The translations under genes and the position numbers were made by a program. The notes under the pieces were generated by a model. The model was not told the DNA's origin. It did not search any database and saw only the letters and a list, made by a program, of their open reading frames with translations. DNA of 64,000 nucleotides from Mesorhizobium sp. B1-1-8. Lineage in GTDB: Bacteria > Pseudomonadota > Alphaproteobacteria > Rhizobiales > Rhizobiaceae. Positions 407-45,482 of this stretch are shown here, in pieces; positions within the stretch are counted from its first letter, which is position 1, and every line of letters starts with the position of its first letter. Location: the NCBI RefSeq assembly GCF_006442795.2, contig NZ_CP083956.1, positions 3,697,501 to 3,761,500 of the forward strand. Direction: 5' to 3'.

Positions 407-825
407 GACCGCCCTCAATCTCGTATTGGCATGGGTGCGCTGGAAAACTCGCATGCCTGCCCGTTGGTTCCGCCAGGAGCGCACAACGCCTGCTCCAGAG
501 CCAACTCGGCAGGGTCGATGTCAAGCCCGGCAGCGTGTTCATTCGCGAAAGCTGAAATGAACAAAGCGGCGAGATTCCAATACGTAAGGACGTCGCTGCG
601 ATCTGGTGCTTCAGGTAACGAACAGCTAACCATGCGTGCGGCGACGCGCTGCGCTCTATTAGCGGATCGTGGTAGAGCTTTTGGCGAGACCCTGTTAGAG
701 TTCTGCACATAACAAGGTGGCAACGGCACGCTGTGCCTGCCGAGGACTTTTCCTCGGCAAACGGCGAAGTGTTCAAGAGCGGAGTCGCCTGTTCTGGACC
801 GAAAACAGGGACCGGGGGCTCGATC
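407..825. other. intergenic, no gene supported
   Basis: About 420 bases between the divergent PepSY-like gene and the cyclase gene. Several frames are open, but none has a convincing ribosome-binding site or a recognisable product. It presumably carries the promoters of both flanking genes; no clear operator is visible. Confidence 0.5.
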
Positions 826-2673
826 ATGGCTGAACGGAATTATACCCGTCAGCTTGCGACGATCATTTCGATCGATGCCGTAGGCTTTTCACGGCTGATG
901 GGCATCGACGACGAACTTGCCGTCGCTGCCTTCGAGGAAAGGCGCGACATCATCGCCGACAGCTGCGGCGCCTTTGGCGGGCGCACCTTCGGCGACGCAG
1001 GCGACAGCGTGATGGCCGAATTCGGCAATCCGATTGAAGCCCTGCGGGCGGCTTTCGACTTCCAGGACCGGATCGTGGCGCTGAATGCCTCGGTCGCCGA
1101 GGAGATGCGCATGCCGTTTCGGGCCGGCATCAACACCGGCGACGTCATCGTCCGCGAGGGCCGCCTTTATGGCGACGACGTCAATATCGCCGCCAGGATC
1201 CAGGAATTCGCCCCGCGTGACGGTCTCGCCCTTTCGGAGACGACATGGCATCACGTGAAGGACAAGACGGCGGCGGCTTTCACCGATCTCGGCGAATTCA
1301 TGTTGAAGAACATCGCCTTGCCGGTGCGCGTCCTGATTGCCGGCCGCAACGCCAATGGCGCCTCGACGACGGCAGCGCCGCTGGCAGCAATTCCGGTCGC
1401 TCCCGCGCACAGCCGGCCAGCTCCCAAGGGTCCGCCGGCGATCGCGGTGCTGCCGTTCCAGGGCGACGGAAGCGAAGCCGATGTCGGTTATATGGCCGAC
1501 GGCATTGCCGAGGACATCATCTACGGCCTCTCCAACACCCGTTGGCTTTCGGTTATCGCCAAGGGCTCCAGCTTCCAGTTTCGCGACGACAGCCTGGGAA
1601 CCAGGGTCATCGGCAATGCGCTCGGCGCCCGCTACATCGTCGGCGGCACGCTGACCGGCTATGGCGGGCAGATCCGCCTCAACGCCTCGCTCACCGATAC
1701 ATCCAACGGGCGGCTCGTATGGTCGCAGCGCTTCGACCGCGCCCTCGGCGACATCTTCAGCCTGCGCGACCAGGTCGGCAGCGAGATCGTTTCCATCCTC
1801 GACAAGGAAGTCGACCGGGCCGAGCAGGCGCGGACCTTCCAGGTGCCATGGGAGAGCCTTGAAACCTGGCAATTGGTGCGGCGCGGCCGCTGGCACATGA
1901 ACCGGCGCACCCGCAGCGACACCGAACTTGCGCTCGAATTCTTCGAAAAGGCCTATCGGGAGGACCCGAATTCCAGCGCGGTGCTGAACGAGCTGGCCTG
2001 GTGGTATTTCTGGCGGGCGTGGCTGCGTTTCGGCGACAGCGACGATCTGGACAAGGTCGAAACGTTCGCGCGCAAGGCGCTGCTTATGGACAGCCTCGAT
2101 GCACGTCCACATGCGCATCTCGGCGTCGCCGACATCATGCGCGGACGGCCGGCATCGGCGGTCGAGCATCTCGAGGAAGCTATACACATCAATCCGAGCT
2201 TTGCCTTCGCACGCTCGGCGATGGGCAGCGCCCTCCTGTTGCTCGGCGATGCCGCCGGCGCGATACCGTTCTTCCTCGACACCGAGCGGTTGAGCCCGTT
2301 CGACCTCTACCGCTTCCACAATCTGGGCGAACTTGCCGCCGCCTACTGCTTCGTCGAGGACTGGCCGGCGGCAATCGCCAACGCCAACCGTTCGCTCAAC
2401 CTGTCGCCAGGCTATTTTTACGCTAGGTTCCTGAAGATCGGCGCCCTGATGCGAAGCGGCCGTCGCGAGGAGGCGACGCGCGAACTTGCCATTTTCGCGA
2501 CCAGGCATCCCGATTTTTCGGAGCAGAGGATTCGCTGGATACCGTTCACCGACACGGCCAAGAACGATTTTCTGATCGCGAATTTCGATCAGGCCAAGTC
2601 CGCTGCAACATTACCCGCCGAACATGGAACGACTGTGAAAAAATTCACATACGCCGGACCGACGGAAACCTAG
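826..2673 (+). CDS. class III adenylate/guanylate cyclase with TolB-like and TPR regions
   Basis: Encodes 615 residues. Residues about 9-175 are a class III nucleotide cyclase domain with metal-binding aspartates at D17 (IDAVGFS) and D60 (GDSVMAEF) and the transition-state pair N120 and R124 in VNIAARI. Residues about 205-360 match the TolB-like region common in rhizobial cyclases (AIAVLPF, then YMADGIAEDIIYGL). Residues about 380-600 are helical TPR repeats. The family makes a cyclic nucleotide, usually cAMP; the lysine that normally selects adenine is replaced by G56, so the product is uncertain. GGGGG lies eight bases before the chosen ATG. The P450-DyP fusion gene follows 55 bases downstream on the same strand, so co-transcription is likely. 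Confidence 0.88.
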   Translation: MAERNYTRQLATIISIDAVGFSRLMGIDDELAVAAFEERRDIIADSCGAFGGRTFGDAGDSVMAEFGNPIEALRAAFDFQDRIVALNASVAEEMRMPFRAGINTGDVIVREGRLYGDDVNIAARIQEFAPRDGLALSETTWHHVKDKTAAAFTDLGEFMLKNIALPVRVLIAGRNANGASTTAAPLAAIPVAPAHSRPAPKGPPAIAVLPFQGDGSEADVGYMADGIAEDIIYGLSNTRWLSVIAKGSSFQFRDDSLGTRVIGNALGARYIVGGTLTGYGGQIRLNASLTDTSNGRLVWSQRFDRALGDIFSLRDQVGSEIVSILDKEVDRAEQARTFQVPWESLETWQLVRRGRWHMNRRTRSDTELALEFFEKAYREDPNSSAVLNELAWWYFWRAWLRFGDSDDLDKVETFARKALLMDSLDARPHAHLGVADIMRGRPASAVEHLEEAIHINPSFAFARSAMGSALLLLGDAAGAIPFFLDTERLSPFDLYRFHNLGELAAAYCFVEDWPAAIANANRSLNLSPGYFYARFLKIGALMRSGRREEATRELAIFATRHPDFSEQRIRWIPFTDTAKNDFLIANFDQAKSAATLPAEHGTTVKKFTYAGPTET

Positions 2674-2728: not shown

Positions 2729-5700
2729 ATGATCAAGATCAAATATTTCGCCGCTGTGCGGGCAGCCCAGAAAAGCCAACGCCCTATCGCCGAAATGCCG
2801 CCGTTCGACATCAACCGGCTTCGTTCCAAGGACGGCCTTGCGTCCCGCATCGCAGGCTTCTTTCTCAGCGATCCGCGCTGGCTGCTGGCGCTGCTGCGCC
2901 GTTTCTGGCCGAACCTTGCATTCGGCAATTTCCTGCTCGTCACCAAGGGCGCCGACGTGCGCGACATACTGGAGCGCGGCGATGAATTCGAAACGCCCTA
3001 TGGGCCGGAAATGGCGGAACTGGCAAGAGGGTCGAACTTCATTCTCGGCATGCAGGACGGCGCCGCGTACCGGCAGATGAAATCGGCAGTGCTGAGTGCG
3101 TTTCCGCCGGCGGAAGTCGAAAGCGCCGTCAGGCCGATCGCCGAGCGGCATTCGCGCGACATCATGACCCGCGCCAGTCCCGGCTTCGACGCCATTGCCG
3201 GACTGATGAAGATCGTGCCGGTGCGCATCTGCCGCGACTATTTCGGCCTCGAGATCGACGACGAGACCGAGTTCGCCGACTGGTCGATCTCGCTCAGCGC
3301 GCTGTTCTTTTCCGACCCGACGGCCAGCGCCACCACGCGCCAGCTGGCGATCGTCGGCGGTGACCGGCTGATCAAGGTCATCGACCGCTCCATCGCCGCG
3401 ATCAGGGACAAAGGCGGCAAGGACGACCGGTCTCTGGGCCGTCTCGTCGCGCTTATGGACCAGGGGCGCCTATCGCTGGCCGATCTCCACTCCATCATGC
3501 TCGGCATGATCGCCGGCTTTGTTCCGACCAATGTGCTTGCCGGCGGCAATTGCCTGGAGGTGATCCTGTCGCGGCCCGATGCGCGTCAGGCTGTCGATGC
3601 GGCGCTTGCCGCAAACAGCACCGAGAAGCTCGACCGGGCGGTGCTCGAGGCCATGCGTTTCAAGCCGATCTGGGTCGGCCCATGGCGTTATACCGCGCGC
3701 GACGCGACCATCGGCAAGGGGACGCGTCGCGAGCGGCTGGTGAAGGCCGGAACGGTGGTGATGCCGGCGACGCTCTCGGCCATGTTCGATCCTGAAATCG
3801 TGCAAAGGCCAAACGAGTTCGATACGTCGCGTCCGCATCGCGACTATATGGTTTTCGGCCACGGCATTCATCTGTGCATCGGCGCCGAGATTGCCCGCAT
3901 CCAGATCGGCGAATGCATTCGCGCCCTGTTCAGCAAGCCGAAACTCAGCCGCATGCGCGGCAGGGCCGGAAAAATGGTCAATGTCGGCGCCTATCCGGCG
4001 AGCCTCAAGGTCGATTTCGAACGCTCGAAGTTCAGCCGCACGGTCGATCAGTCCATGGTGACTGTGGTCTGCCCGGTCAGGCGCGGGGTGCCGCTCGATG
4101 CCGCGCGCGACAAGGTCGAAGCGCTCGGCAATCCGGCAATCGACGAGCTTGGCCAGGCGCTCGACACGGTCGGCTCAATCCATTTCACCAGCCTGGCCGT
4201 CGCCGCCACCGGCAAGGACGAGGCGTCGGGCCTCGAATCCGGAGCGCTGGTATTTGAAATCTCCGGCGACGGCAGCGCCGATGACGTCATTGCAGCGCTC
4301 ACGCATGCCATCGGGCAGCGGCTGAGGCCGATCTTCAGGGACGTGTGCGGCCTGCCCGACGGCGACTCGCTGGAGGACTTCCTGAAGAAGCACCACATCG
4401 AGATATCGCCGTCCTTCGGCAGCACTGCCGGGCTGGTTTTTTCGGGTACGCCGGGGCACTCGGTGCAGCGCATCAGGGCCGAGGCCAAGCTTGCCGACAG
4501 CGTGCGCGATATCGCCGAAAGGCCGCGCACCGGCACCGGCGACGCTCCAGCGGTGCTCGCCGAGGCGCGCCGCCATGTCCAGGCGCTGGGGACGTTCCCC
4601 TGGGCTTTCGAGCCGGCCGAGAGTCTCCTGGAAAGGCCGCCGGGGCGGTGGTGGAACGCCTTTAAGACGACGCTGCTGGTCCCGCCGGTTCTCGCGACGC
4701 TGGCGATACTCCTGGCTGCCGGCTGGTATATGACTTACCACCTGGTATTCGGGAGGGTTGTCGACATAAGCTCGATCTCGGTCACCGGCATAGCCATCGC
4801 CGTGACTTCTCTTGTGCTGGCACTGGCCGGATTGTTGATTTTCGCGATGCTGTTGGCGCTTCTGGGCCTATGGCTGCTGCAACGCCTCGATGACCGGGAC
4901 CAGCCGCAAAACACCTCGATCGGGATAGAGGCGCTGGACAGGATCCTCGCCCATGAGGACCACGCCGCCCAAAACCATCTGACGGCGATCTCGACGATGA
5001 AGGCCGGCATCCTGCGGCGGCTGGCGCTCAGGTTTTCCTTCTACCTGATCTCGATAGCAGCGCAGAAAGTGTTCAAGCCGGGCTTTCTCGCTACCATCAA
5101 CACCATCCATTTCGCCCGCTGGGTGCTGCTCCCCGGCTCCAATAAGCTGATGTTTTTCTCCAACTATGGCGGCAGCTGGGAAAGCTATCTGGAGGACTTC
5201 ATCGCCAAGGCATCCGAAGGCCTGACCGGCGTGTGGAGCAACACCGAGGGCTATCCGCGCACACGCTTGCTCTTTCTCGACGGCGCGCGCGACGGCGACC
5301 GCTTCAAGCGCTGGGCGCGGCGCCAGCAGGTGCCGACCCTGTTCTGGTACTCCGCCTACCCGGATCTCAACACCACGCGCATCCGCATCAACTCCAGGAT
5401 CAGGCGCGGCATTGCATCGGCCACCGGCAATGAGGCGCGCGACTGGCTGAGCCTGTTCGGCTCCTTGCCGCGTCCGCAGGCGAGGGCCGCGGACGCGGCA
5501 AGTCCCTCCACGCCACGTGCTTGGCCGGTTGAAGAGCTGGAATCCGGCGAGATCCAGTCGATCTTCTTTGGCCCTTTCGGCGCGCTGGGTTATGCGCATA
5601 TGCTGGCCATCCAAGTGCCCGAGAACCTGCCGAAAACCAAGCGCAAGGCCTGGCTGGATTTCGTCATCGCGCAAACGAGTTTCGGCGACGGCGTGCCTGC

Positions 5701-7039
5701 CGAACGAGCCATGACGGTGGCCTTCGGCCCTAAAGGACTCAAGCGGCTGGGGCTGGAAGGCGGCGTCGACGACGATCCGCTGGACACGTTCCCCGTCGCC
5801 TTTCGCCACGGCATGGGCAATCCCGAGCGCAGCCGCATCCTCGACGAAACCGGCCCCGACGCACCCGACAAATGGCAGTGGGGCTCGCTTGAAAAGCCGG
5901 TGGACGCGGTCATCGTCTGCTATGCGGGCAGGCCGGATAGCCTGAAGACCGAGATTGCCGCGGCGAAGCGGCAGACGACCGGGGCGGGGATGAAAATCGT
6001 CGCTGAACTGCCGCTCGTCATAAACCGTGAACCGCCAAAGGACGGCGCGAAAGCTCCTCAGACTGCAAAGGGTGACGAAGCCGCAAGGCATAGCGGCAAG
6101 CCAGAGCGCCCCCGCGCGTACGAGCATTTCGGCTTTGTCGATGGCGTCTCGCAGCCGGTCGTGCGGGGCACGGCGCGCGCCAACAAGGGTGCGGCGCCCA
6201 TGCATCTGGTCGCGCCGGGCGAATTCCTGTTCGGCTATCGCGACGAGCACGGCTTCTATCCGGCTTCGCCCTCGGTGCGGGCAGCGCAGGACCGCACCGG
6301 CATCCTGTCGCAGGTGCGGCGCAACCGGCAGGTTCCCGGCCAGCCGCCGCCGCCGCGCGACTTCGGACGCAACGGCTCCTTCCTTGTCGTGCGGCAGTTC
6401 GAACAGCATGTCGAATTGTTCGACAGTTATTGCAGGCAGGCGGCGGCGCGGGCCGCCCGCGAGACCGCCGATCCGGCCATCACACCCCACTGGGTCGCCG
6501 CCAAGATGCTCGGCCGCTGGCAGGACGGCAGCTCGCTGGTACGCAATCCCGACGGTCGTCAGGGCCGCGGCGCGGACAACGACTTCGCCTTCGGCGCCGA
6601 GGATCCGCAAGGGCATCGCTGCCCGCTCGGTTCGCATATACGCCGTTCCAACCCGCGCGATTCGCTTGGCGAGGACCGCGAGACGCAGATCGCGATCGGC
6701 AAGCGCCACCGCATCCTGCGCGTCGGCCGCACCTATGAGAAGAAGGGCAAGGACGGGAAGGTCGAGAAAGGCCTTCTCTTCATGTGCCTCAACGCCGACA
6801 TCGAGCGTCAGTACGAATTCATGCAGCAGACCTGGGTTTCGTCGAGCTCGTTCCAGGGCCTTGTCGGCGAAAAGGACCCGATGATCGGCGCACGCAACGG
6901 CGATGGCCGGTTCTCGATCCCGTCTTGGGAGAAGGTCACGGTGCTGAAGGATATGCCGCAGTTCGTCACCACAAAGGGCGGCGGCTATTTCTTCATGCCG
7001 AGCCGCTCGGCACTGCGCTACCTGATTTCACGGCTTTGA
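2729..7039 (+). CDS. cytochrome P450 - membrane linker - DyP-type peroxidase fusion
   Basis: Encodes 1436 residues. Residues 1 to about 430 are a cytochrome P450: ExxR at E307-R310 and the heme-thiolate motif FGHGIHLCIG with ligand C383. The I-helix motif reads GFVPTN (263-268) without the usual acid-threonine pair. Residues about 430-630 are unassigned. Two hydrophobic helices lie near 641-675 and 681-716. An unassigned region (about 720-1000) contains HFARWVLLPGSNKLMFFSNY. The C-terminal part is a DyP-type heme peroxidase with GFVDG (catalytic D1138) and proximal heme histidine H1303 in GSHIRR. Two heme enzymes in one membrane-tethered chain suggest a peroxide- or hydroperoxide-linked oxidation; the substrate is unknown. 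A GTG at 2702 is possible, but the ATG at 2729 has GGGGGG about 11 bases upstream. Confidence 0.88.
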   Translation: MIKIKYFAAVRAAQKSQRPIAEMPPFDINRLRSKDGLASRIAGFFLSDPRWLLALLRRFWPNLAFGNFLLVTKGADVRDILERGDEFETPYGPEMAELARGSNFILGMQDGAAYRQMKSAVLSAFPPAEVESAVRPIAERHSRDIMTRASPGFDAIAGLMKIVPVRICRDYFGLEIDDETEFADWSISLSALFFSDPTASATTRQLAIVGGDRLIKVIDRSIAAIRDKGGKDDRSLGRLVALMDQGRLSLADLHSIMLGMIAGFVPTNVLAGGNCLEVILSRPDARQAVDAALAANSTEKLDRAVLEAMRFKPIWVGPWRYTARDATIGKGTRRERLVKAGTVVMPATLSAMFDPEIVQRPNEFDTSRPHRDYMVFGHGIHLCIGAEIARIQIGECIRALFSKPKLSRMRGRAGKMVNVGAYPASLKVDFERSKFSRTVDQSMVTVVCPVRRGVPLDAARDKVEALGNPAIDELGQALDTVGSIHFTSLAVAATGKDEASGLESGALVFEISGDGSADDVIAALTHAIGQRLRPIFRDVCGLPDGDSLEDFLKKHHIEISPSFGSTAGLVFSGTPGHSVQRIRAEAKLADSVRDIAERPRTGTGDAPAVLAEARRHVQALGTFPWAFEPAESLLERPPGRWWNAFKTTLLVPPVLATLAILLAAGWYMTYHLVFGRVVDISSISVTGIAIAVTSLVLALAGLLIFAMLLALLGLWLLQRLDDRDQPQNTSIGIEALDRILAHEDHAAQNHLTAISTMKAGILRRLALRFSFYLISIAAQKVFKPGFLATINTIHFARWVLLPGSNKLMFFSNYGGSWESYLEDFIAKASEGLTGVWSNTEGYPRTRLLFLDGARDGDRFKRWARRQQVPTLFWYSAYPDLNTTRIRINSRIRRGIASATGNEARDWLSLFGSLPRPQARAADAASPSTPRAWPVEELESGEIQSIFFGPFGALGYAHMLAIQVPENLPKTKRKAWLDFVIAQTSFGDGVPAERAMTVAFGPKGLKRLGLEGGVDDDPLDTFPVAFRHGMGNPERSRILDETGPDAPDKWQWGSLEKPVDAVIVCYAGRPDSLKTEIAAAKRQTTGAGMKIVAELPLVINREPPKDGAKAPQTAKGDEAARHSGKPERPRAYEHFGFVDGVSQPVVRGTARANKGAAPMHLVAPGEFLFGYRDEHGFYPASPSVRAAQDRTGILSQVRRNRQVPGQPPPPRDFGRNGSFLVVRQFEQHVELFDSYCRQAAARAARETADPAITPHWVAAKMLGRWQDGSSLVRNPDGRQGRGADNDFAFGAEDPQGHRCPLGSHIRRSNPRDSLGEDRETQIAIGKRHRILRVGRTYEKKGKDGKVEKGLLFMCLNADIERQYEFMQQTWVSSSSFQGLVGEKDPMIGARNGDGRFSIPSWEKVTVLKDMPQFVTTKGGGYFFMPSRSALRYLISRL

Positions 7040-7058: not shown

Positions 7059-7745
7059 TCAACCGTCGTCCTGCGAATCGGCGATCTGGTTCAAGGCGGC
7101 GGCGTTGGTTATGCGCAGTCCGCCGCGCTTGATGGCGATCATCTGCCGGTTGCGCCAGTCGTTGAGCGCCTTGTTGACCGATTCGCGCGTCGCGCCGAGG
7201 AACTCGCCGAGCTCCGACTGGGAAATCGGAATCCAGCCGGCAGGATCAGCCATGACACCGCTCAGGAATACCAGCCGCTTCGCCAGCCTGGCTTCGATGC
7301 CGAAAAAGGCCTGGTCGCCCAGTTCGCCGCTGACCCAGCGCAGCCGGGCGCACAGCAACCCGATCATGGCGCGCGCGAGCGGCGGGTTTTTCTCAATGCG
7401 ATCAAATAGTTGAGCGCGACTGAGGGAAACCAGCTCGCAGGCTGTGAGGCAGATCGCGGTCGCCGTTCGCGGTCGTCCGTCGAGCGCGCCGATCTCGCCG
7501 ACAAGGCTGCGCGAGAGCTCGATATTGGCCACCAGCTTCTGGCCGCCCGGCGAATAGATCGAGATTTCGACGTTGCCGTTCAACACACCGTAGATGCGGT
7601 CGGCGGCATCTTCCTGGACGAACAGATGCTGGCCGGCGGCATAACGTTCGACCTTGCAGCCGGCAAAAAGCAGGTCGAAGTGACCGGGATCGATCCGCGC
7701 CAGGCGCGACAATGCGCTCCGGTCATCCGCGCCGGCTGTGGACAT
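7059..7745 (-). CDS. Crp/Fnr-family transcriptional regulator
   Basis: Encodes 228 residues: an N-terminal cyclic-nucleotide-binding beta barrel and a C-terminal winged helix-turn-helix (about residues 165-215, ISQSELGEFLGATRESVNKAL). The phosphate-binding cassette reads GEIGALDGRPRTATA, which fits cAMP-binding Crp-like proteins (GE, then R-T/S-A). There is no N-terminal cysteine cluster, so it is not an oxygen-sensing Fe-S FNR. The gene converges on the P450-DyP gene with only 19 bases between stops, and a cyclase lies beyond, which suggests but does not prove a local cAMP circuit. The start was taken at MSTAGADD because upstream sequence shows no family character. Confidence 0.85.
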   Translation of the reverse strand: MSTAGADDRSALSRLARIDPGHFDLLFAGCKVERYAAGQHLFVQEDAADRIYGVLNGNVEISIYSPGGQKLVANIELSRSLVGEIGALDGRPRTATAICLTACELVSLSRAQLFDRIEKNPPLARAMIGLLCARLRWVSGELGDQAFFGIEARLAKRLVFLSGVMADPAGWIPISQSELGEFLGATRESVNKALNDWRNRQMIAIKRGGLRITNAAALNQIADSQDDG

Positions 7746-8300
7746 GATGCGATTCCGCCTCTCTTCGAGGGGGAATTGTAGGACAAGTGCGTGCTCGATC
7801 AAAGCTTCCTCTCCTTCGTGACGGCATTGCGGATGCAATGCCTCTCGGCCGGTCACGAAACAGTCGTGGGCGCTTCGTGAGCCGGCAAATTTCAGCGAAC
7901 GAAAGGCAGGTCTGGCGGAACCATGCCCAAATATTCGAAACGCCATCCGCGCGCGTGGCGGGAGGTGGCCATCGCACGCGGACAGCAAAACTGAAAATGG
8001 TTAGGTGCTCGATAGCCCCTGTCGAGGAACGACCCCATTTTCAGGTTCGGGAAGCCCATCTCAGAACCTGTGCATCGCGCAAAGGGTCATCGCCACCCGG
8101 GTGCGGTTATCTGTGCGCGTTTCTCCCGCGCCGTATGTGAAGGCATTCACAGAAGTGCGTCCCGCGCGGCGCGATTGTCATTTTAGCAGCGAGGGCACTT
8201 TGTTCATATTCCGCGGCCAATTGTCGAAACTCGAAAACTGCTTTATGGAGCGATCGGCTGATTGAGGGCGGCCATCCATCCTGTTTGCGTAGGTTGCCCC
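7746..8300. other. intergenic region with one inverted repeat
   Basis: About 555 bases between the divergent Crp-family gene and a small membrane-protein gene. No convincing coding frame is visible. It carries a perfect 10-base inverted repeat, CTGAAAATGG (7991-8000) and CCATTTTCAG (8035-8044), separated by 34 bases. I see no consensus Crp or FNR site. Confidence 0.5.
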
Positions 8301-8471: not shown

Positions 8472-8617
8472 CAGCCACGCCAGTGTGGACGGCTCCAGTG
8501 TCAAATCGCGGCAGGGCAAAGCTGTCGCGTTCGAGCCTGCGTGTCCGGACTAGAAGTCGGTGTGCGCGCACAGAGTCAAACTTTTGTGAGATACCGGGAT
8601 TCTGCACGGGGACGTTC

Positions 8618-8642
8618 GGAACAATGCTCCGGCTGGATGGTT
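8618..8642 (+). promoter_or_regulatory. EcfG-like (general stress response) promoter
   Basis: GGAAC (8618-8622), a 16-base spacer and GGTT (8639-8642) match the alphaproteobacterial EcfG consensus GGAAC-N16/17-cGTT except for the first base of the -10 box. Predicted transcription would start about 25 bases before the paoA ATG. No EcfG, PhyR or NepR gene is in the window. Confidence 0.45.
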
Positions 8643-8675
8643 AGCGCCAATGATCAGCCAGCCATGGAGCGAGCC

Positions 8676-9296
8676 ATGTCCCAGTCTTCCGCCTCTAGCG
8701 CCAATGGCCTCAGCCGACGAAGCTTCATGACCGGCACTGTTTCGGTCGCCGCCGCGGCGCCGATGCTCGCCTCCGCGGCGCAGGCCGAAACGCCGGCAGC
8801 ATCCCCGTCAAAGCTCAGGGAAACCGTCGTCACATCGCTGCGGATCAACAAGCAGCCCTACGAGCTTTCGCTCGATCCAAGGACGAGTCTGCTCGACGCC
8901 CTGCGCGATCATGTCGGCCTGACCGGGACGAAGAAGGGCTGCGACCACGGCCAGTGCGGCGCCTGCACGGTTCTCGTCGACGGCAAGCGCGCGCTCTCCT
9001 GTCTCAGCTTCGCGGTGATGAACCGGGGCAAGGAAGTAACGACGGTGGAAGGACTGGCCTCGAGCGACGGTAAATTGCATCCGATGCAGCAGGCCTTCAT
9101 CGATCACGATGCCTTTCAGTGCGGCTATTGCACGCCGGGCCAGATCATGTCGGCGATCGGCTGCGTCAATGAAGGTCACGCCGGTTCCGAGGATGATATT
9201 CGCGACTATATGAGCGGCAACATCTGCCGCTGCGCGGCCTATCCGAACATCGTCGCGGCAATCATGCAGGCGCGCGATGAGACAAGGGGGGCTTGA
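8676..9296 (+). CDS. paoA: periplasmic aldehyde oxidoreductase, 2Fe-2S subunit
   Basis: Encodes 206 residues, the small iron-sulfur subunit of a xanthine-oxidase-family molybdoenzyme of the E. coli PaoABC type. A twin-arginine signal (SRRSFMTG, about residues 13-20) followed by an alanine-rich stretch predicts Tat export of the folded complex. The plant-ferredoxin cluster motif C89-x4-C94-x2-C97 (CDHGQCGAC) and the second cluster motif CGYC...CRC (about 149-186) are intact. The start at 8676 has GGAG six bases upstream; ATGs at 8637 and 8664 are possible alternatives. The paoB ATG begins one base after this stop, so the three subunits form an operon. Confidence 0.9.
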   Translation: MSQSSASSANGLSRRSFMTGTVSVAAAAPMLASAAQAETPAASPSKLRETVVTSLRINKQPYELSLDPRTSLLDALRDHVGLTGTKKGCDHGQCGACTVLVDGKRALSCLSFAVMNRGKEVTTVEGLASSDGKLHPMQQAFIDHDAFQCGYCTPGQIMSAIGCVNEGHAGSEDDIRDYMSGNICRCAAYPNIVAAIMQARDETRGA

Positions 9297-9297
9297 G

Positions 9298-10320
9298 ATG
9301 CGTCCCTTCGTTTACGAGCAGCCAACGAACGTATCCGCCGCTGTTGCGGCTGCATCCCGATTTACTTCCGCCGACGACCAGCCGACACAAGCGAACGCGC
9401 AGTTCATTGCCGGCGGCACCAACCTTGCCGATTACATGAAGCTCGGTGTCGCACAGCCGAACAGACTGCTGGACCTCAACCGGCTCGCCGAGCCGGCACT
9501 CCGGCAGATCAGGATTACCGATGACGGCATCCGCTTCGGTGCGCTGGTGCGGATGGGGGAGGCCGCAGACAACAGCGAGGTCAAACGCCGCTATCCGGTG
9601 ATCGCCGACAGCTTGCGGCTGGCGGCAAGCGGTCAGATACGCAACATGGCCAGTCTTGCCGGAAACATCCTGCAGCGCACGCGCTGCGAATATTTCCGCG
9701 AGACCTCCTGGCCTTGCAACAAGCGCGCGCCGGGCTCCGGCTGCGCGGCGATGGAGGGCTTCAACAGGCAGCATGCGGTGCTTGGGACCAGCGATGCCTG
9801 CATCGCCACCTATCATGGCGACTTCGCCCAGGCGCTCATCGCGCTCGATGCCGTGGTTCATGCGGAAGGCTCACGCGGCGCGCGGAAAATTTCATTCGCC
9901 AAGCTGCATCGGCAACCCGGCGCCACGCCGCATATCGAGACCGAGCTGGCGGCCGACGAGATCATCACTGCCATCGAAGTGCCGGCCATTTCATGGGCTC
10001 GCCGTTCGCTCTACCTGAAAATCCGCGATCGCGAATCCTATGCCTTTGCGCTGGCCTCGGCGGCCGTCGCGCTCGACCTCGACGGTGACAGCGTGCGCGA
10101 AGCCCGCATCGCGCTTGGCGGCGTGGCGACGGTCCCGTGGCGCGCCCGAGCGGCTGAGGAGGCCTTGCAAGGCAAGACGCTCGACGAGGCGTCCGCCAAG
10201 ACAGCTGCTGATGCTGCCTTTGCCGACGCCGAACCGCGCCAGCACAACGGATTCAAAATAGAGCTCGGCAAGCGAACGCTGGTGCGGGCGTTACTCGAAA
10301 CCCGCGACATCAAGGTGTGA
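9298..10320 (+). CDS. paoB: aldehyde oxidoreductase, FAD-binding subunit
   Basis: Encodes 340 residues of the CO-dehydrogenase flavoprotein medium-subunit fold. The FAD pyrophosphate loop appears as AGGTN near residue 40 and the second FAD contact as SLAGNILQRTRC near 118-130. The cysteines in RCEYF, WPCNK and GSGC (about 130-150) match the additional 4Fe-4S cluster insertion found in PaoB, which ordinary xanthine dehydrogenase FAD subunits lack. The subunit carries electrons between molybdenum and an external acceptor. A GGGGGG run precedes the ATG by several bases. It has no signal peptide of its own and probably exports with PaoA. Confidence 0.9.
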   Translation: MRPFVYEQPTNVSAAVAAASRFTSADDQPTQANAQFIAGGTNLADYMKLGVAQPNRLLDLNRLAEPALRQIRITDDGIRFGALVRMGEAADNSEVKRRYPVIADSLRLAASGQIRNMASLAGNILQRTRCEYFRETSWPCNKRAPGSGCAAMEGFNRQHAVLGTSDACIATYHGDFAQALIALDAVVHAEGSRGARKISFAKLHRQPGATPHIETELAADEIITAIEVPAISWARRSLYLKIRDRESYAFALASAAVALDLDGDSVREARIALGGVATVPWRARAAEEALQGKTLDEASAKTAADAAFADAEPRQHNGFKIELGKRTLVRALLETRDIKV

Positions 10321-10322
10321 CC

Positions 10323-12602
10323 ATGGACGCAGCCGCTCCAAGACCCAAGGACAATCAAGGCGAACCGCTGCCGCGTATCGATGGGCGGTTGAAGGTTACT
10401 GGCCAAGCTCACTATCCGGCAGATCTGCCGACGGCCAACATAGCCTATGGCGTACTTGCAACGAGCAGCATCGCCAAGGGCAGGGTGACCAGGCTTCATC
10501 TCGATGAGGCTCGCGCAGTGCCGGGCCTGCTCGATATCGTGACATACGGTGACATGGACAAGGTCGACAGGCCGAAGTTTGGCAACGGCAGTGCAACCTC
10601 GGTCGGACCGCTGCACGACCGGGCGATCTTCCACGATGGCCAGATCATCGCGCTCGCCGTTGCCGAGACTTTCGAGGCGGCCGAGGAGGCAGCGCAACTG
10701 ATCCGCGCGGAATACGAGGAGCAAGAACCGACAGCGAGCTTCGATAGCCCCGGAACGAAGACCATTCCCGCTGCCGGCAAAAGCCCGCTGTTCAAGGAAG
10801 ACGTCAAGGCCGGCGATTTCGATGCCGCCTATGCCGCCGCTCCGGTCAAGATCGACGCACGCTATTCGACCCCGACGCAGCATCACAATCCGATCGAGCT
10901 GTTCTCGACGACGGCGATGTGGCAAGGCGATCAACTCATCGTCCACGAGCCGTCCCAGAATGTCACCGGCTGGAAGGTCGAACTTGCCAGGCAATTGAAG
11001 ATCGATCCGGCGAAAGTGCGGATCGTCAGTCCCTATATCGGAGGCGCATTCGGCTCGAAGGGACCGATGACATCGCGCACAGCGATCGTCGCTGTTGCCG
11101 CCAGGCGTCTCGGCCGGCCGGTGCGTTGCGTGACGAGCCGCATGCAGGCCTTCGGCACCCAGACCTACCGGGCCGAAACCCGGCATCGAGTCCGGATCGG
11201 CGCCGGCAAGGACGGTCGCATCACCGCCTTCGCGCATGAAGGCTGGGAAATGACGTCTCGTACGGACGATTATGTCGTCGGCGGCACTTCGGCTACCGGC
11301 CGCATGTATGACTACGGCTCGGTGCTGACGCATGTCTCGCTGGTCCAGGCCGACCGCAACACGCCGGGCTATATGCGTTCGCCGCCAGAGACGCCCTACG
11401 TCTTCGCCCTGGAGAACGCCATGGACGAGATGGCGGTGGCGCTCGGCATGGACCCTGTCGAATTTCGCCGGATCAATGAACCGAAGCAGGAGCCGATCGG
11501 AAAGAAGCCCTTCTCCAGCCGCTCGCTGGTCCAATGTTATGACCAGGCGGCGGATGCGTTCGGCTGGGCGAAGCGCGATCCTAAGATTGGTGCGATGCGC
11601 GAGGGCGACTGGCTAATCGGCGTGGGCTGCGCCACAGCCATCTATCCAACCGCCGCGGCGCCTTGCGCGGCGCGCGTTCGCCTCTCCGTCGAGGGCGATG
11701 TGCGCGTGCAGTGCGGTTCGCATGAAATCGGCACCGGCGTGCGCACCGTCGCCGGCCAGATGGCCGCGGAGCGTCTTGGCGTCGGCATCGACCGGGTGAA
11801 TGTGGAGATGGGCGACAGCAGCCTGCCGCCGGCGCCGGTATCGGGCGGCTCGATTTCCACCGCGAGCGTGTGTTCGGCAGTGCTCAAGGCCTGCGACGCG
11901 ATACGGACCAAACTCTATGCCGCCGCAACGGCCGAAGGCGGCCCGCTGGCCGCTTCCCATAATGAGGAACTGGACCTTCGGGGCGGCAAGATCGTGGCGA
12001 AAAGCGGCGCATCGGCCAAGGTCGAGGATGTTTTCAAGACCATGCAGGCGGGGGCGATCGAGGAATATGCCGAGTTCGCGCCCAAGGGCGCGACGCCCGA
12101 GGCGCTGAAGAAGCTCTATGCCGGCCTGCCGGAATTCCATGGCGGCGAGTACGACGAGGATTCGGTGAAATACGCCTTCGGCGCCGAATTCGTGGAGGTT
12201 CGCATCAACAATTATACAAAGGAAATCCGCGTGCCGCGTATCGTCGGCGCGTTCGCCGCCGGCCGCATCATGAACACGCGCACAGCGCGCAGCCAACTGA
12301 TGGGCGGCATGATCTGGGGCATCGGCCAAGCGCTGCACGAGGCGACGGAGGTCGACAGACGCTATGCCCGCTATGTGAACCGCGACCTCCAGGATTACCT
12401 TGTACCGGTCAATGCCGACATCAAGGATTTGCAGGTCATCCTGGTTCCGGAGATCGACCATGCGGTCAATCCGGCCGGCGTCAAGGGATTGGGAGAACTG
12501 GGCAATGTCGGCACGGCAGCCGCGGTTGCAAGCGCTGTCTATCACGCGACAGGCAAGCGCATCCGCGACCTGCCGATCAGGATAGAGCAGCTGATCGCCT
12601 GA
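10323..12602 (+). CDS. paoC: aldehyde oxidoreductase, molybdenum-binding catalytic subunit
   Basis: Encodes 759 residues, the large molybdopterin subunit of the xanthine oxidase family. Visible landmarks are YIGGAFGSKG (about 238-247), EIGTGVRTVAGQ near 470 and the C-terminal GLGELG whose E725 corresponds to the catalytic glutamate. The subunit hydroxylates aldehydes to carboxylic acids; E. coli PaoC prefers aromatic aldehydes, but the substrate here is not determined by sequence. The ATG follows the paoB stop by two bases. The PaoD/XdhC-type maturation chaperone that such enzymes need is not in the window. Confidence 0.9.
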   Translation: MDAAAPRPKDNQGEPLPRIDGRLKVTGQAHYPADLPTANIAYGVLATSSIAKGRVTRLHLDEARAVPGLLDIVTYGDMDKVDRPKFGNGSATSVGPLHDRAIFHDGQIIALAVAETFEAAEEAAQLIRAEYEEQEPTASFDSPGTKTIPAAGKSPLFKEDVKAGDFDAAYAAAPVKIDARYSTPTQHHNPIELFSTTAMWQGDQLIVHEPSQNVTGWKVELARQLKIDPAKVRIVSPYIGGAFGSKGPMTSRTAIVAVAARRLGRPVRCVTSRMQAFGTQTYRAETRHRVRIGAGKDGRITAFAHEGWEMTSRTDDYVVGGTSATGRMYDYGSVLTHVSLVQADRNTPGYMRSPPETPYVFALENAMDEMAVALGMDPVEFRRINEPKQEPIGKKPFSSRSLVQCYDQAADAFGWAKRDPKIGAMREGDWLIGVGCATAIYPTAAAPCAARVRLSVEGDVRVQCGSHEIGTGVRTVAGQMAAERLGVGIDRVNVEMGDSSLPPAPVSGGSISTASVCSAVLKACDAIRTKLYAAATAEGGPLAASHNEELDLRGGKIVAKSGASAKVEDVFKTMQAGAIEEYAEFAPKGATPEALKKLYAGLPEFHGGEYDEDSVKYAFGAEFVEVRINNYTKEIRVPRIVGAFAAGRIMNTRTARSQLMGGMIWGIGQALHEATEVDRRYARYVNRDLQDYLVPVNADIKDLQVILVPEIDHAVNPAGVKGLGELGNVGTAAAVASAVYHATGKRIRDLPIRIEQLIA

Positions 12603-41852: not shown

Positions 41853-44240
41853 ATGAGCGACCTACCGACTACAGCCAGCCCCCGATTGTCGGAAAACGAA
41901 CTGCATAACATCAACGCCTATTGGCGCGCCGCGAATTATCTGACGATCGGCCAGATCTACCTGCTCGACAATCCGCTGCTGCGCGAGCCTCTACGGCTGG
42001 AGCACGTCAAGCCGCGGCTGCTTGGTCATTGGGGAACCTCGCCGGGCCTCAGCTTCATCTACGCGCATCTCAACCGCGCGATCCGGCTGCGCGACGCCAA
42101 TATCATCTATATCTGCGGCCCCGGTCACGGCGGCCCCGCGATGGTGGCGAATAGCTATCTTGAAGGCGTCTACAGCGAGATCAATCCCGATATCTCGCCG
42201 GACGAGAACGGAATGAGGAAGCTGTTCCGGCAATTCTCGTTTCCGGGCGGCATTCCCAGCCATGCCGCACCGGATGTGCCGGGCTCGATCCACGAGGGCG
42301 GCGAGCTCGGCTACGCGCTCTCCCATGCCTACGGCGCGGCCTTCGATAACCCGGATCTCATCGTCGCCTGCGTCGTCGGAGACGGCGAGGCGGAGACCGG
42401 GCCGCTCGCCACCGCTTGGCATTCCAACAAATTCCTCAACCCGGCGCAGGATGGCGCGGTGCTGCCGATCCTCCATCTCAACGGCTACAAGATCGCCAAT
42501 CCGACAATCTTTGCCCGCATTCCGCAAGACGAGTTGCGCGCGCTGTTCGTCGGCTATGGCTATGAGCCGCTATTCGTCGAAGGCCATGAGCCGGCATTGA
42601 TGCATCAGCGGATGGCGGTCGTTCTCGACGAGGCGCTCGATCGCATCAAGGCCATTCAGGATGCGGCTCGCAGCGATGGCGCCGCTGCCCGGGACCGGCC
42701 GAAATGGCCGATGATCGTGCTGCGAAGCCCCAAAGGCTGGACAGGTCCGAAAGAGGTCGACGGGCTGAAGACCGAGGGCTTCTGGCGTGCGCATCAGGTT
42801 CCGCTATCTGGTCTCGCCGAGAACCCGGCGCATCTCAAAATGCTGGAGGAGTGGCTGCGAAGCTATCGGCCAGAGGAATTGTTCGATGCCGGCGGCGCAG
42901 CTGTGGCCACGATCCGTGCCACCGCTCCGCGGGGAACCAGGCGCATGAGCGCCAATCCGCATGCGAATGGCGGCCTGCTGCGCCGATCACTTAGCCTGCC
43001 CAGCCTGCAGGACCACGCGCCGTCGGTCGAACGCCCCGGATCGGTCAAGGCCGAGGCGACCCGGGTGATGGGCAATTTCCTGCGCGACGTCATGATGCTG
43101 AACCAGGACGCCAGGAACTTCCGCATCGTCGGTCCTGACGAGACAGCCTCGAACCGGTTACAGGATGTGTTCGAGGTGACGGAACGTGCCTGGATGGAAA
43201 CGATTCTGCCCGAAGACGTGCATCTCGGCCGCGAGGGCAGGGTGATGGAAATCCTGTCCGAACACACCTGTCAGGGCTGGCTGGAAGGTTACCTGCTAAC
43301 GGGGCGGCATGGTTTGTTCTCGTGCTACGAGGCCTTCACGCACATCGTGGATTCCATGTTCAACCAACACGCCAAATGGCTGGACGCCTGTCGCAAATTA
43401 CCCTGGAGACGGCCGATCGCGTCGCTGAATTACCTTTTGTCCAGCCACGTCTGGCAGCAGGAGCACAATGGTTTCAGCCATCAGGATCCGGGCTTCATCG
43501 ACGTGGCTTTGAACAAGAAGGCCGATGTCGTTCGCGTCTACTTGCCGGCTGACGCCAACAGCCTGCTTTGCGTAACCGACCATGTGCTGCAGACATGGAA
43601 CCGGATCAACGTGATCGTGGCCGGCAAGGCCATGTCCTGGCAATGGCTGTCGATCGAAGAGGCGATCGTCCACTGCCATCAAGGCATCGGCATATGGAAC
43701 TGGGCGTCAACCGATGACGGAGCCGAGCCTGACGTGGTCATGGCATGCGCCGGCGACGTGCCGACGCTTGAGACGCTCGCCGCCGTCCAGATCCTGAAGA
43801 ACAGCATTCCGGAACTCAGGATCAGGGTGGTCAACATCGTCGACCTGATGACCCTGCAGCCAAAGGAACACCACCCTCACGGTCTATCGGATCGCGATTT
43901 CGACGCCCTGTTCACCGGGGATAAGCCGGTCATCTTCGCCTACCATGGCTATCCGTGGACCATCCACCGGCTGACCTATCGGCGAACCAATCACGACAAC
44001 ATCCATGTGCGCGGCTATAACGAGGAAGGGACGACCACGACGCCGTTCGACATGACCGTTCTGAATGGCCTCGATCGGTATCACCTGGTGCTGACTGTTC
44101 TCGACCGCATCCCGGCGCCGACAGGCGCGCATATCCAGTTGAAACAGGCCATGGAAGGCAAGCTGATCGAGCACCATGCCTATATCCGGGAGCACGGGCA
44201 GGACATGCCGGAAATTCTCGGCTGGAAGTGGGAGCAGTAG
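41853..44240 (+). CDS. xfp: xylulose-5-phosphate/fructose-6-phosphate phosphoketolase
   Basis: Encodes 795 residues, the full family length. This thiamine-diphosphate enzyme splits xylulose 5-phosphate (or fructose 6-phosphate) with phosphate to give acetyl phosphate and a shorter sugar phosphate. Typical motifs are [18 protein letters not shown] (about 59-76), [10 protein letters not shown] near 87, [21 protein letters not shown] (about 130) and [11 protein letters not shown] near 182. ackA follows 75 bases later on the same strand, so the pair would turn sugar phosphates into acetate and ATP. The ribosome-binding site is weak. Confidence 0.96.
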
Positions 44241-44315
44241 TCGGTGCGGCCGCCATCCTGGCCCGATCAGCTGAACGACGTCCATTGGCCGGCGGGTGGC
44301 TAAGGTGCTTCAGCC

Positions 44316-45482
44316 ATGAGCGACGCGATCCTTGTCCTCAACGGTGGTTCCTCAAGCCTGAAGTTCGCCCTCTTCCGGGAGGGCGATGAGCTTGCCCCGC
44401 TTCTGCGCGGGAATTTGTCCTCGATGGGGAAGCATCCGCGGCTGCGCGTTGCGGCCACGCAAACGGCAGCGGAAATCGACAGAAGCCTGGGCGATGAAGC
44501 GATCGATACCGCCAAGGCGTTTGCCGCGGTGGCCTCGGTGCTCGCCGATCGCGACATGCTGCGCCGGATAGGCAAGGTCGGGCACCGGATCGTGCACGGC
44601 GGGCGGGATTTTATCGGGGCGGCAATGCTCGACGCCGACAACCTCAAAGCCCTGCATCGCCTGGAGCCGCTCGCTCCGATTCACCAGGCCATCAACCTCG
44701 AGATCGTCGCGCTGGCTGCCGAACTCCTGCCAAAGGCGATCCAGGTCGGCTGCTTCGATACTACCTTCCACACGGCGCGACCGGAGCTGGCCAGGATCTA
44801 CGGCCTGCCGCGCGAACTCACGGAAGCGGGCATCGTTTCCTACGGGTTCCATGGACTTTCCTACAGCCACATTGCCGGGAAGCTTCGCGGACGTTACGGC
44901 GCTGCCGCCGGCGGGCGGGCGATTGTCGCCCATCTCGGCAGCGGCGCGAGCCTTTGCGCCATGCGGGGAGGGGCAAGCGTCGCCACCACGATGGGATTTT
45001 CGACGCTCGACGGCCTTGTGATGAGTACGCGTTGCGGCGCTGTGGATCCGGGGGCTATCCTGTACCTTCTCCAGGACAAAAAGCTTTCTTCCGAAGAACT
45101 TACGAACCTGCTTTACGAGAAATCCGGCCTGTTGGGCGTGTCCGCCATTTCGGGGGATATGCAGACGCTGCTTGGCTCGAGTGATCCTGCAGCGGCCCGT
45201 GCCGTCGACCTCTTCGTCTATCGTATCGGGCGTGAAATCGGTTCGCTCGCCGCTGCGCTTGGCGGACTGGACACGCTGGTTTTCACCGCCGGCATTGGCG
45301 AGCACGCAGCTGTGGTCCGGCAAAGGATCTGCGAAGCAGCGGAATGGCTTGGCGTTGCGCTCGACAATGATTTGAACCAGGGCGGCGAAGAACTGGTCAA
45401 CGCGCCGAACTCCCGCGTCGACGTTCTTGTCATCCCAGCCGACGAGGAAAGTGCCATGGCCAGGGAACTGCTCCAGTTCTGA
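44316..45482 (+). CDS. ackA: acetate kinase
   Basis: Encodes 388 residues. It transfers phosphate from acetyl phosphate to ADP. Family signatures are VLNGGSSSLKFALF near 6-19, VGHRIVHGG near 88-96 and FDTTFH near 148. The phosphate-binding region includes YGFHGLSYSHI near 171, AHLGSGASLCA near 206 and FTAGIGEHAAVVR near 325. It lies downstream of xfp, which supplies its substrate, and no phosphotransacetylase gene is present in the window. A tRNA gene follows on the other strand. Confidence 0.95.
   Translation: MSDAILVLNGGSSSLKFALFREGDELAPLLRGNLSSMGKHPRLRVAATQTAAEIDRSLGDEAIDTAKAFAAVASVLADRDMLRRIGKVGHRIVHGGRDFIGAAMLDADNLKALHRLEPLAPIHQAINLEIVALAAELLPKAIQVGCFDTTFHTARPELARIYGLPRELTEAGIVSYGFHGLSYSHIAGKLRGRYGAAAGGRAIVAHLGSGASLCAMRGGASVATTMGFSTLDGLVMSTRCGAVDPGAILYLLQDKKLSSEELTNLLYEKSGLLGVSAISGDMQTLLGSSDPAAARAVDLFVYRIGREIGSLAAALGGLDTLVFTAGIGEHAAVVRQRICEAAEWLGVALDNDLNQGGEELVNAPNSRVDVLVIPADEESAMARELLQF

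Follow-up and report, generated by a model that had tools for sequence, protein, structure and literature searches.

A cytochrome P450 and a peroxide-handling heme domain are known to share one chain in fungal oxylipin enzymes, the dioxygenase-P450 fusions (linoleate diol, allene oxide and epoxy alcohol synthases), where an N-terminal cyclooxygenase-like heme domain precedes a P450 that lacks a reductase, and the hemes work one after the other. A related arrangement is the coral allene oxide synthase-lipoxygenase, in which a hydroperoxide-converting heme domain is joined to an oxidising enzyme. In the self-sufficient CYP102 and CYP116 enzymes, the P450 stands within a multidomain chain that includes its own reductase. 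Peroxygenase P450s in which the acid-alcohol pair is replaced also exist (excerpt of PMC5377825). Here we analyse a stretch of 64,000 nucleotides from Mesorhizobium sp. B1-1-8 (contig NZ_CP083956.1, positions 3,697,501 to 3,761,500), referred to as the window, in which one gene encodes a P450, two undescribed domains (M1 and M2) on either side of a membrane hairpin, and a DyP-type peroxidase. Judged by its sequence, this chain looks like a bacterial counterpart of the fungal enzymes that make oxidised-lipid signals, and would represent a separate bacterial invention that relies on a different peroxidase fold and occurs in legume symbionts and numerous relatives. It may also provide a candidate natural peroxide-coupled P450 working without a reductase, and a possible function for DyP peroxidases.

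The gene is open from ATG 2729 to the stop codon ending at 7039 (with an alternative start at GTG 2702), and its product reads, from the N- to the C-terminus, P450, M1, membrane hairpin, M2 and a complete DyP peroxidase. That both heme enzymes share one intact frame was the core of the original prediction, made from the letters alone, and it is borne out by Pfam, NCBIfam and searches of family profiles against the PDB; M1 and M2, and the cyclase/TPR and Crp genes conserved alongside, did not figure in that prediction. In the 1436-residue protein, the proposed domain search with Pfam detects two domains, p450 (E 8.9e-10) and Dyp_perox_C (E 1.7e-5), and nothing else up to E 0.01, that is, neither a flavin or Fe-S reductase domain as fused in CYP102 and CYP116, nor the cyclooxygenase-like N-terminal domain of the fungal enzymes, and NCBIfam adds Dyp_perox_fam over residues 1124-1428 (E 7.4e-27, 94.5 bits, slightly below the curated cut-off of 100.5). 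The contrast drawn with the fungal enzymes, a different peroxidase fold and the opposite order, holds as well: the P450 comes first and the DyP last, with M1, M2 and the hairpin between them. Complete fused frames among relatives span 1388 to 1633 residues, and a single open frame of at least 1330 residues is found in 46 of the 49 Rhizobiaceae genomes with a match, which come from many independent assemblies. The chain is genuine and no artefact; an assembly or sequencing error joining two genes, the objection that the prediction had itself raised, is barely conceivable given these frames, and nothing was found in its favour, although split versions do occur elsewhere (loci L068 and L095). In one relative (L168), the fusion gene reads as two overlapping frames (1185 and 673 residues), apparently through a frameshift.

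The search for further P450-DyP chains, also proposed at the outset, returned full-length matches in 22 of 37 Mesorhizobium-group genomes (the window genome counted) and, in nine plasmid records, matches over most of the chain. Searches with the middle region find matches in 49 of 394 Rhizobiaceae genomes, spread over 24 of 109 genera, in 8 of 385 genomes of the class and in 16 of 398 of the phylum; among 11 matching phylum genomes outside the family, two carry the fusion (L184 and L185) and nine do not. Of 378 matching plasmid records, these nine carry 80% or more of the chain: seven come from Sulfitobacter, one from Pararhizobium and one (pNL2) from Novosphingobium aromaticivorans. The annotations of these copies read cytochrome P450, Dyp-type peroxidase domain-containing protein or hypothetical protein. 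In soil and symbiotic bacteria, the fusion is retained intact over long evolution. Neither a description of a P450-DyP fusion nor biochemical data on any member were found in the open-licence literature searched, and the words "peroxidase", "fused" and "fusion" are absent from the main text of a survey of alphaproteobacterial P450s (PMC8197338).

Conservation was assessed in 56 full fusions, all less than 90% identical to each other. The hallmarks of the P450 superfamily, the heme-binding cysteine of the FGxGxHxCxG motif (C383, placed correctly in the original prediction) and the ExxR pair (E307 and R310), are each kept in 56/56, and a profile of the fused P450s has CYP113A1 as its best PDB match (E 1.9e-34). 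Most fused rows have GF-x-P-T-N/T/D in the I-helix, and P266 and T267 are invariant (56/56). In a MAFFT alignment, the column of the acid holds a proline in all 93 fused rows (86 distinct sequences), versus an aspartate or glutamate in 15 of 18 ordinary P450s picked by hand. The acid-alcohol pair of O2-activating monooxygenases, which is present in most but not all such enzymes, is thus not found in the fusion P450, and the acid is also absent in 11 of the 12 rows of unfused partner P450s, two of these rows (L168 and L075) being close to the fusions. The CYP152 peroxygenases (P450BSbeta, OleT) have also exchanged this pair for other residues and, like the fusions, have a proline at or beside its position. 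They are defined, however, by an Arg-Pro pair (excerpt of PMC5377825), and the residue before the proline in the fusions is V, A, T, G or I (93/93); the NCBIfam matches listed for the window protein include no CYP152 model.

The approximately 530 residues between the two heme domains comprise M1, the hydrophobic hairpin and M2; a Pfam search of this part is empty up to E 5, and no PDB structure matches it convincingly. In an AlphaFold2 model of residues 436-965 (model A1; mean predicted local distance difference test, pLDDT, 53.3; predicted template modelling score 0.32), model residues 11-120 of M1 contain blocks at pLDDT 67-91 with the predicted order beta-alpha-alpha-beta-beta-alpha, and the first part of M1 looks ferredoxin-like by this order of strands and helices. 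M2, for which no convincing PDB match was obtained either, is mostly modelled at pLDDT <50, and no fold is therefore claimed for it. The two hydrophobic helices predicted at about 641-716 were found at 647-665 and 695-713, a crude hydropathy scan adding a borderline third window (672-690) in the window protein. Among the 56 proteins, 51 have two such windows, two have four, two have one and the window protein has three, and the even helix numbers in most fusions suggest that both heme domains lie on the same side of the membrane, which we infer to be the cytosol. Two fusions (L066 and L155) have four hydrophobic helices between M1 and M2 instead of two, and the scan also reports 17 more hydrophobic windows outside the M1-M2 gap across the 56 proteins. 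Stand-alone M2 genes (200-334 residues, one to three copies) occur beside P450-less DyP genes at L070, L082, L084 and L101, with DUF4331, c-type cytochrome or Mo-hydroxylase genes at some of these loci. An IHF stretch seen by eye in both M1 and M2 raised the idea of an internal duplication; HHalign of the two profiles gave it no support, and it is not claimed.

At the other end of the chain, the profile of the fused DyP domains matches 8re3 (E 1.1e-74) with both halves of the fold aligned. D1138, the distal aspartate of the GxxDG signature (here GFVDG), is kept in 56/56 fusions, and the proximal H1303 in 55/56, the exception (L169) ending before it at a contig end; both residues stand where they were first predicted. 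Four arginines (R1310, R1326, R1328 and R1331), each conserved in at least 55 of the 56, are candidates for the distal arginine. With its catalytic residues conserved, the DyP domain is probably active. It shares both fold halves, the GxxDG aspartate and the proximal histidine with C/D-type DyPs and their relatives (8re3, 7anv, DyP2 and the Alr1585 protein), but unlike them it is joined to a P450, the M domains and a membrane hairpin. The natural substrates of DyP peroxidases are mostly not known.

Do the two heme enzymes also meet outside this fusion? Several loci carry them as neighbouring genes: P450 and M-DyP as separate genes (L068 and L095, the P450 of the latter being cut near a contig end), M, DyP and P450 as overlapping genes (L081 from Skermanella, L096 and L186), P450, M and DyP as separate genes (L190 and L191), M2, DyP and P450 (L099), DyP and P450 (L067 and L193), or a P450 divergent from M and DyP (L098). 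At L100, a reversed single chain, DyP-P450 (1007 residues, both Pfam domains), is accompanied by M2 as a separate gene. The neighbour-gene versions in several orders, together with the reversed chain, argue that the pairing of P450 and DyP is selected. The P450 tree separates the DyP-linked P450s from 15 control P450s by a branch with support 100/100, and unites the fusions with L068 and the lone P450 of L075 in one group (98/96); a long-branch warning for L191, L100 and several controls makes their placement unsure. The split pair L068 falls outside all fusions in the P450 tree and inside them in the DyP tree, where L068, L095 and P450-less Rhizobium proteins are nested among the fusions. Because the two trees disagree on L068, fusion followed by fission and fusion after pairing are both possible.

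A second kind of partner is found at three loci (L187, L188 and L189), where no P450 match occurs within the 15-16 kb read and where M-DyP is tied to a catalase-like protein (L187:9833-11029, L188:9128-10390 and L189:4847-6118), encoded by the gene after DyP in L187 and L189 and making up the last 400 residues of the DyP chain in L188. The functional link between two heme centres suggested in the original prediction is therefore supported by these three loci as well as by the neighbour-gene versions and the reversed fusion. The catalase-like proteins share 46-50% identity, have no Pfam match up to E 0.01 and no NCBIfam match up to E 1, and the accompanying DyPs cluster in the DyP tree (94/84). 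A profile of the three sequences finds the coral allene oxide synthase-lipoxygenase first in the PDB (E 2.1e-4, and E 1.2e-3 for the entry of the full fusion), which would place a weak homologue of the coral hydroperoxide-converting domain beside or fused to DyP; these loci differ from the coral enzyme in having no lipoxygenase, and the window protein has a P450 in place of the catalase-like domain. This link to the coral allene oxide synthase is suggestive only. The three proteins have an asparagine (ERxGNTKT) at what is presumably the distal histidine site of catalases. In L187 and L189, a co-oriented gene upstream encodes a GMC oxidoreductase, from a family that includes H2O2-making members; a nitroreductase lies downstream in L188, and a di-heme cytochrome c peroxidase follows DyP in L192, with one small frame between. 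Fatty-acid dioxygenases of the di-heme cytochrome c peroxidase family are known in Pseudomonas (excerpt of PMC4496055), catalase-related proteins include hydroperoxide-converting or fatty-acid-oxidising members (excerpt of PMC5617202), and hydroperoxide-converting self-sufficient P450s are the fusion partners of fungal dioxygenases (excerpt of PMC13049297). As all three partner families have members of these kinds, hydroperoxide chemistry would be favoured by analogy.

These observations are consistent with a two-heme oxidoreductase anchored in the inner membrane through its hairpin, with both heme domains cytosolic, that would perform sequential peroxide or hydroperoxide chemistry on one substrate, perhaps a lipid. 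We propose this tentatively, as a reading somewhat short of an even chance. The original prediction went further, to a reaction that may be channelled between the hemes. The P450 would work on peroxide, acting either as a peroxygenase with H2O2 or as an isomerase or lyase of an organic hydroperoxide, and the adjacent M-DyP part would handle the same peroxide or substrate, by a radical route to an oxidised or hydroperoxide intermediate or by peroxide control; the two hemes would act in sequence, and a membrane lipid would be the likeliest substrate class. With no reductase domain in the chain, no I-helix acid, and no ferredoxin or ferredoxin reductase gene listed within 8 kb at three annotated fusion loci (whose annotation is incomplete), the P450 would most simply use a peroxide or hydroperoxide, a chemistry that the missing acid fits. 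A more specific, and doubtful, version is a bacterial oxylipin synthase, in which M-DyP would act as a membrane lipid dioxygenase producing a hydroperoxide, the P450 or catalase-like protein would rearrange it to a signal, and a regulator encoded upstream (of the TPR-cyclase or SARP-like kind described below) would detect it. If true, such a synthase would have arisen independently of those of fungi, plants and corals, and would bring a new role for DyP and two new domain families.

Several points weigh against sequential peroxide chemistry. The reversed DyP-P450 fusion is limited to one genome, the P450 domain of L191 scores weakly, missing the Pfam cut-off at E 0.0011, and four Rhizobium loci (L080, L083, L085 and L162) carry M-DyP without a P450. 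The I-helix register is uncertain by one residue, as MAFFT sets the proline on the acid and HMMER, aligning with CYP113A1, sets it on the following threonine; since the alternative register puts V, A, G, T or I at the acid position in 93/93 rows, the acid is absent under either alignment, and the comparison of GAVDTT in L099 with GAVPTT in L193, within the family, favours the acid-to-proline register. The partner P450s of L099 and L095 (GAIDTT, excluded from the row count as a fragment) retain the canonical acid, so that association with DyP is not limited to acid-less P450s. CYP113A1 reads AGHITT at the acid site and is named a hydroxylase in the PDB, hence acid loss alone is no proof of peroxide use, and most named P450s in the PDB profile list are hydroxylases or monooxygenases. 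Finally, the coral match spans about 60 residues only, and single-sequence PDB searches gave it E 0.0035 from L187 and nothing up to E 1 from L188.

The genes flanking the fusion (Table 1) are in part conserved with it. A homologue of the window cyclase/TPR gene, whose likelier start is ATG 826 rather than GTG 733, immediately precedes the fusion in 51 of the 53 non-redundant relatives that could be scored, and the convergent Crp gene lies downstream in 42 of 53. In window-type cyclases, D48, D91, N151 and R155 are invariant (32/32) and the usual lysine is a glycine (32/32); with the former kept and the latter changed, cyclase activity is possible and uncertain. Among the 11 relatives lacking the Crp gene, eight (L078, L079, L131, L136, L145, L163, L184 and L185) have a more distant type of upstream gene, the remaining ones, at the distance read, being L054, L154 and L167. 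This distant type encodes TPRs and no cyclase by Pfam in all seven scanned (L145 excepted from the scan), and its N-terminus appears, from record annotation and reading, to be a SARP-type DNA-binding domain. In L068 and L191, a different cyclase with AAA and TPR parts is encoded directly upstream of the P450, and the window cyclase homologue is absent in several unfused versions. The linkage to cyclase and Crp genes suggests that the product or activity of the fusion feeds a signalling circuit, in which the upstream cyclase/TPR regulator and the Crp protein would form the control. Crp-like boxes upstream of the cyclase gene (13/80 with at most two mismatches, the window not being one of the 13) and FNR-like ones (3/80) were put aside, about as many being expected by chance from rough arithmetic.

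Table 1. Position and basis of the features described in the window
Feature	Position	Strand	Basis
Gene with class III cyclase domain and TPRs	733..2673	+	646 residues from GTG 733; Guanylate_cyc E 3.2e-5 and TPR matches (Pfam)
P450-M1-TM-M2-DyP fusion gene	2729..7039	+	1436 residues; open reading frame, Pfam/NCBIfam, relatives
Cytochrome P450 domain, residues 1-430	2729..4018	+	Pfam; profile against PDB; heme Cys C383, ExxR E307-R310
I-helix Pro266-Thr267 (GFxPT motif), at the acid-alcohol pair of ordinary P450s	3524..3529	+	56/56 fusions
M1 domain, residues 436-630	4034..4618	+	no family; nothing in Pfam up to E 5
Membrane hairpin, about residues 647-713	4667..4867	+	hydropathy scan
M2 domain, residues 722-960	4892..5608	+	motif IHxARWV...SNYxGxWESYLEDF; no family
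DyP peroxidase domain, residues 966-1436	5624..7036	+	profile against PDB; D1138 (GFVDG), proximal H1303
Crp/Fnr-family regulator, convergent	7059..7988	-	cNMP_binding E 2.8e-17, HTH_Crp_2 E 3.9e-14 (Pfam)
Mo aldehyde oxidoreductase operon, three genes (PaoABC-like: Fer2, FAD and Mo subunits)	8541-12602		just past the Crp gene

Could the P450 instead be an ordinary monooxygenase fed by cellular ferredoxins, with a DyP that only clears the H2O2 leaked in uncoupled turnover? The solved P450s closest to it are mostly O2-dependent hydroxylases, the best of them acid-less too, two partner P450s keep the acid, and Thr267 is kept in every fusion; yet the acid is gone from every fused row, the three loci with annotation list no ferredoxin or reductase gene (incomplete as that annotation is, and although the window has the 2Fe-2S subunit of a Mo-hydroxylase at 8541-9296), and protection of a P450 would leave the catalase-like protein of the three P450-less loci unexplained. 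We regard this explanation as fairly unlikely.

The breakdown of aromatic or other soil compounds, in which the DyP would oxidise the substrate and the P450 finish the work, for example by demethylation, would agree with the oxidation of dyes and lignin models by DyPs (excerpt of PMC8230527), with the occurrence of relatives in Novosphingobium aromaticivorans and in a Skermanella of oil-polluted desert, and with the Mo aldehyde oxidoreductase operon close by in the window. Such a pathway nevertheless seems unlikely: the membrane hairpin and the kind of neighbours conserved, namely cyclase/TPR, SARP-like and Crp regulators, speak against it, although catabolic neighbours were not searched for systematically, and no other fusion was seen to have the Mo operon at its side, short flanks limiting the view at many of these loci. 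The same regulators, with the cyclase head exchanged for a SARP-like one where Crp is missing, could mean that the protein is mainly a sensor, its hemes reading peroxide, O2 or lipid state and signalling through the cyclase/TPR protein to Crp. This is very unlikely in our view: all fusions but one truncated row retain the catalytic residues of the P450 and the DyP, the seven scanned relatives of the Novosphingobium/Sulfitobacter type have no upstream cyclase match, and several unfused versions do without the window cyclase, though L068 and L191 carry another type.

Mo-hydroxylase genes were also considered as partners of the fusion and discarded, Fer2 being matched only in the P450-less L082 and L084 among 85 loci, many of them short-flanked. 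Upstream of the cyclase gene, a frame of 187 residues (149-712) has no Pfam family and has matches similarly placed in many Mesorhizobium loci. Further along the window, a phosphoketolase gene is followed by an acetate kinase gene (41853-45482).

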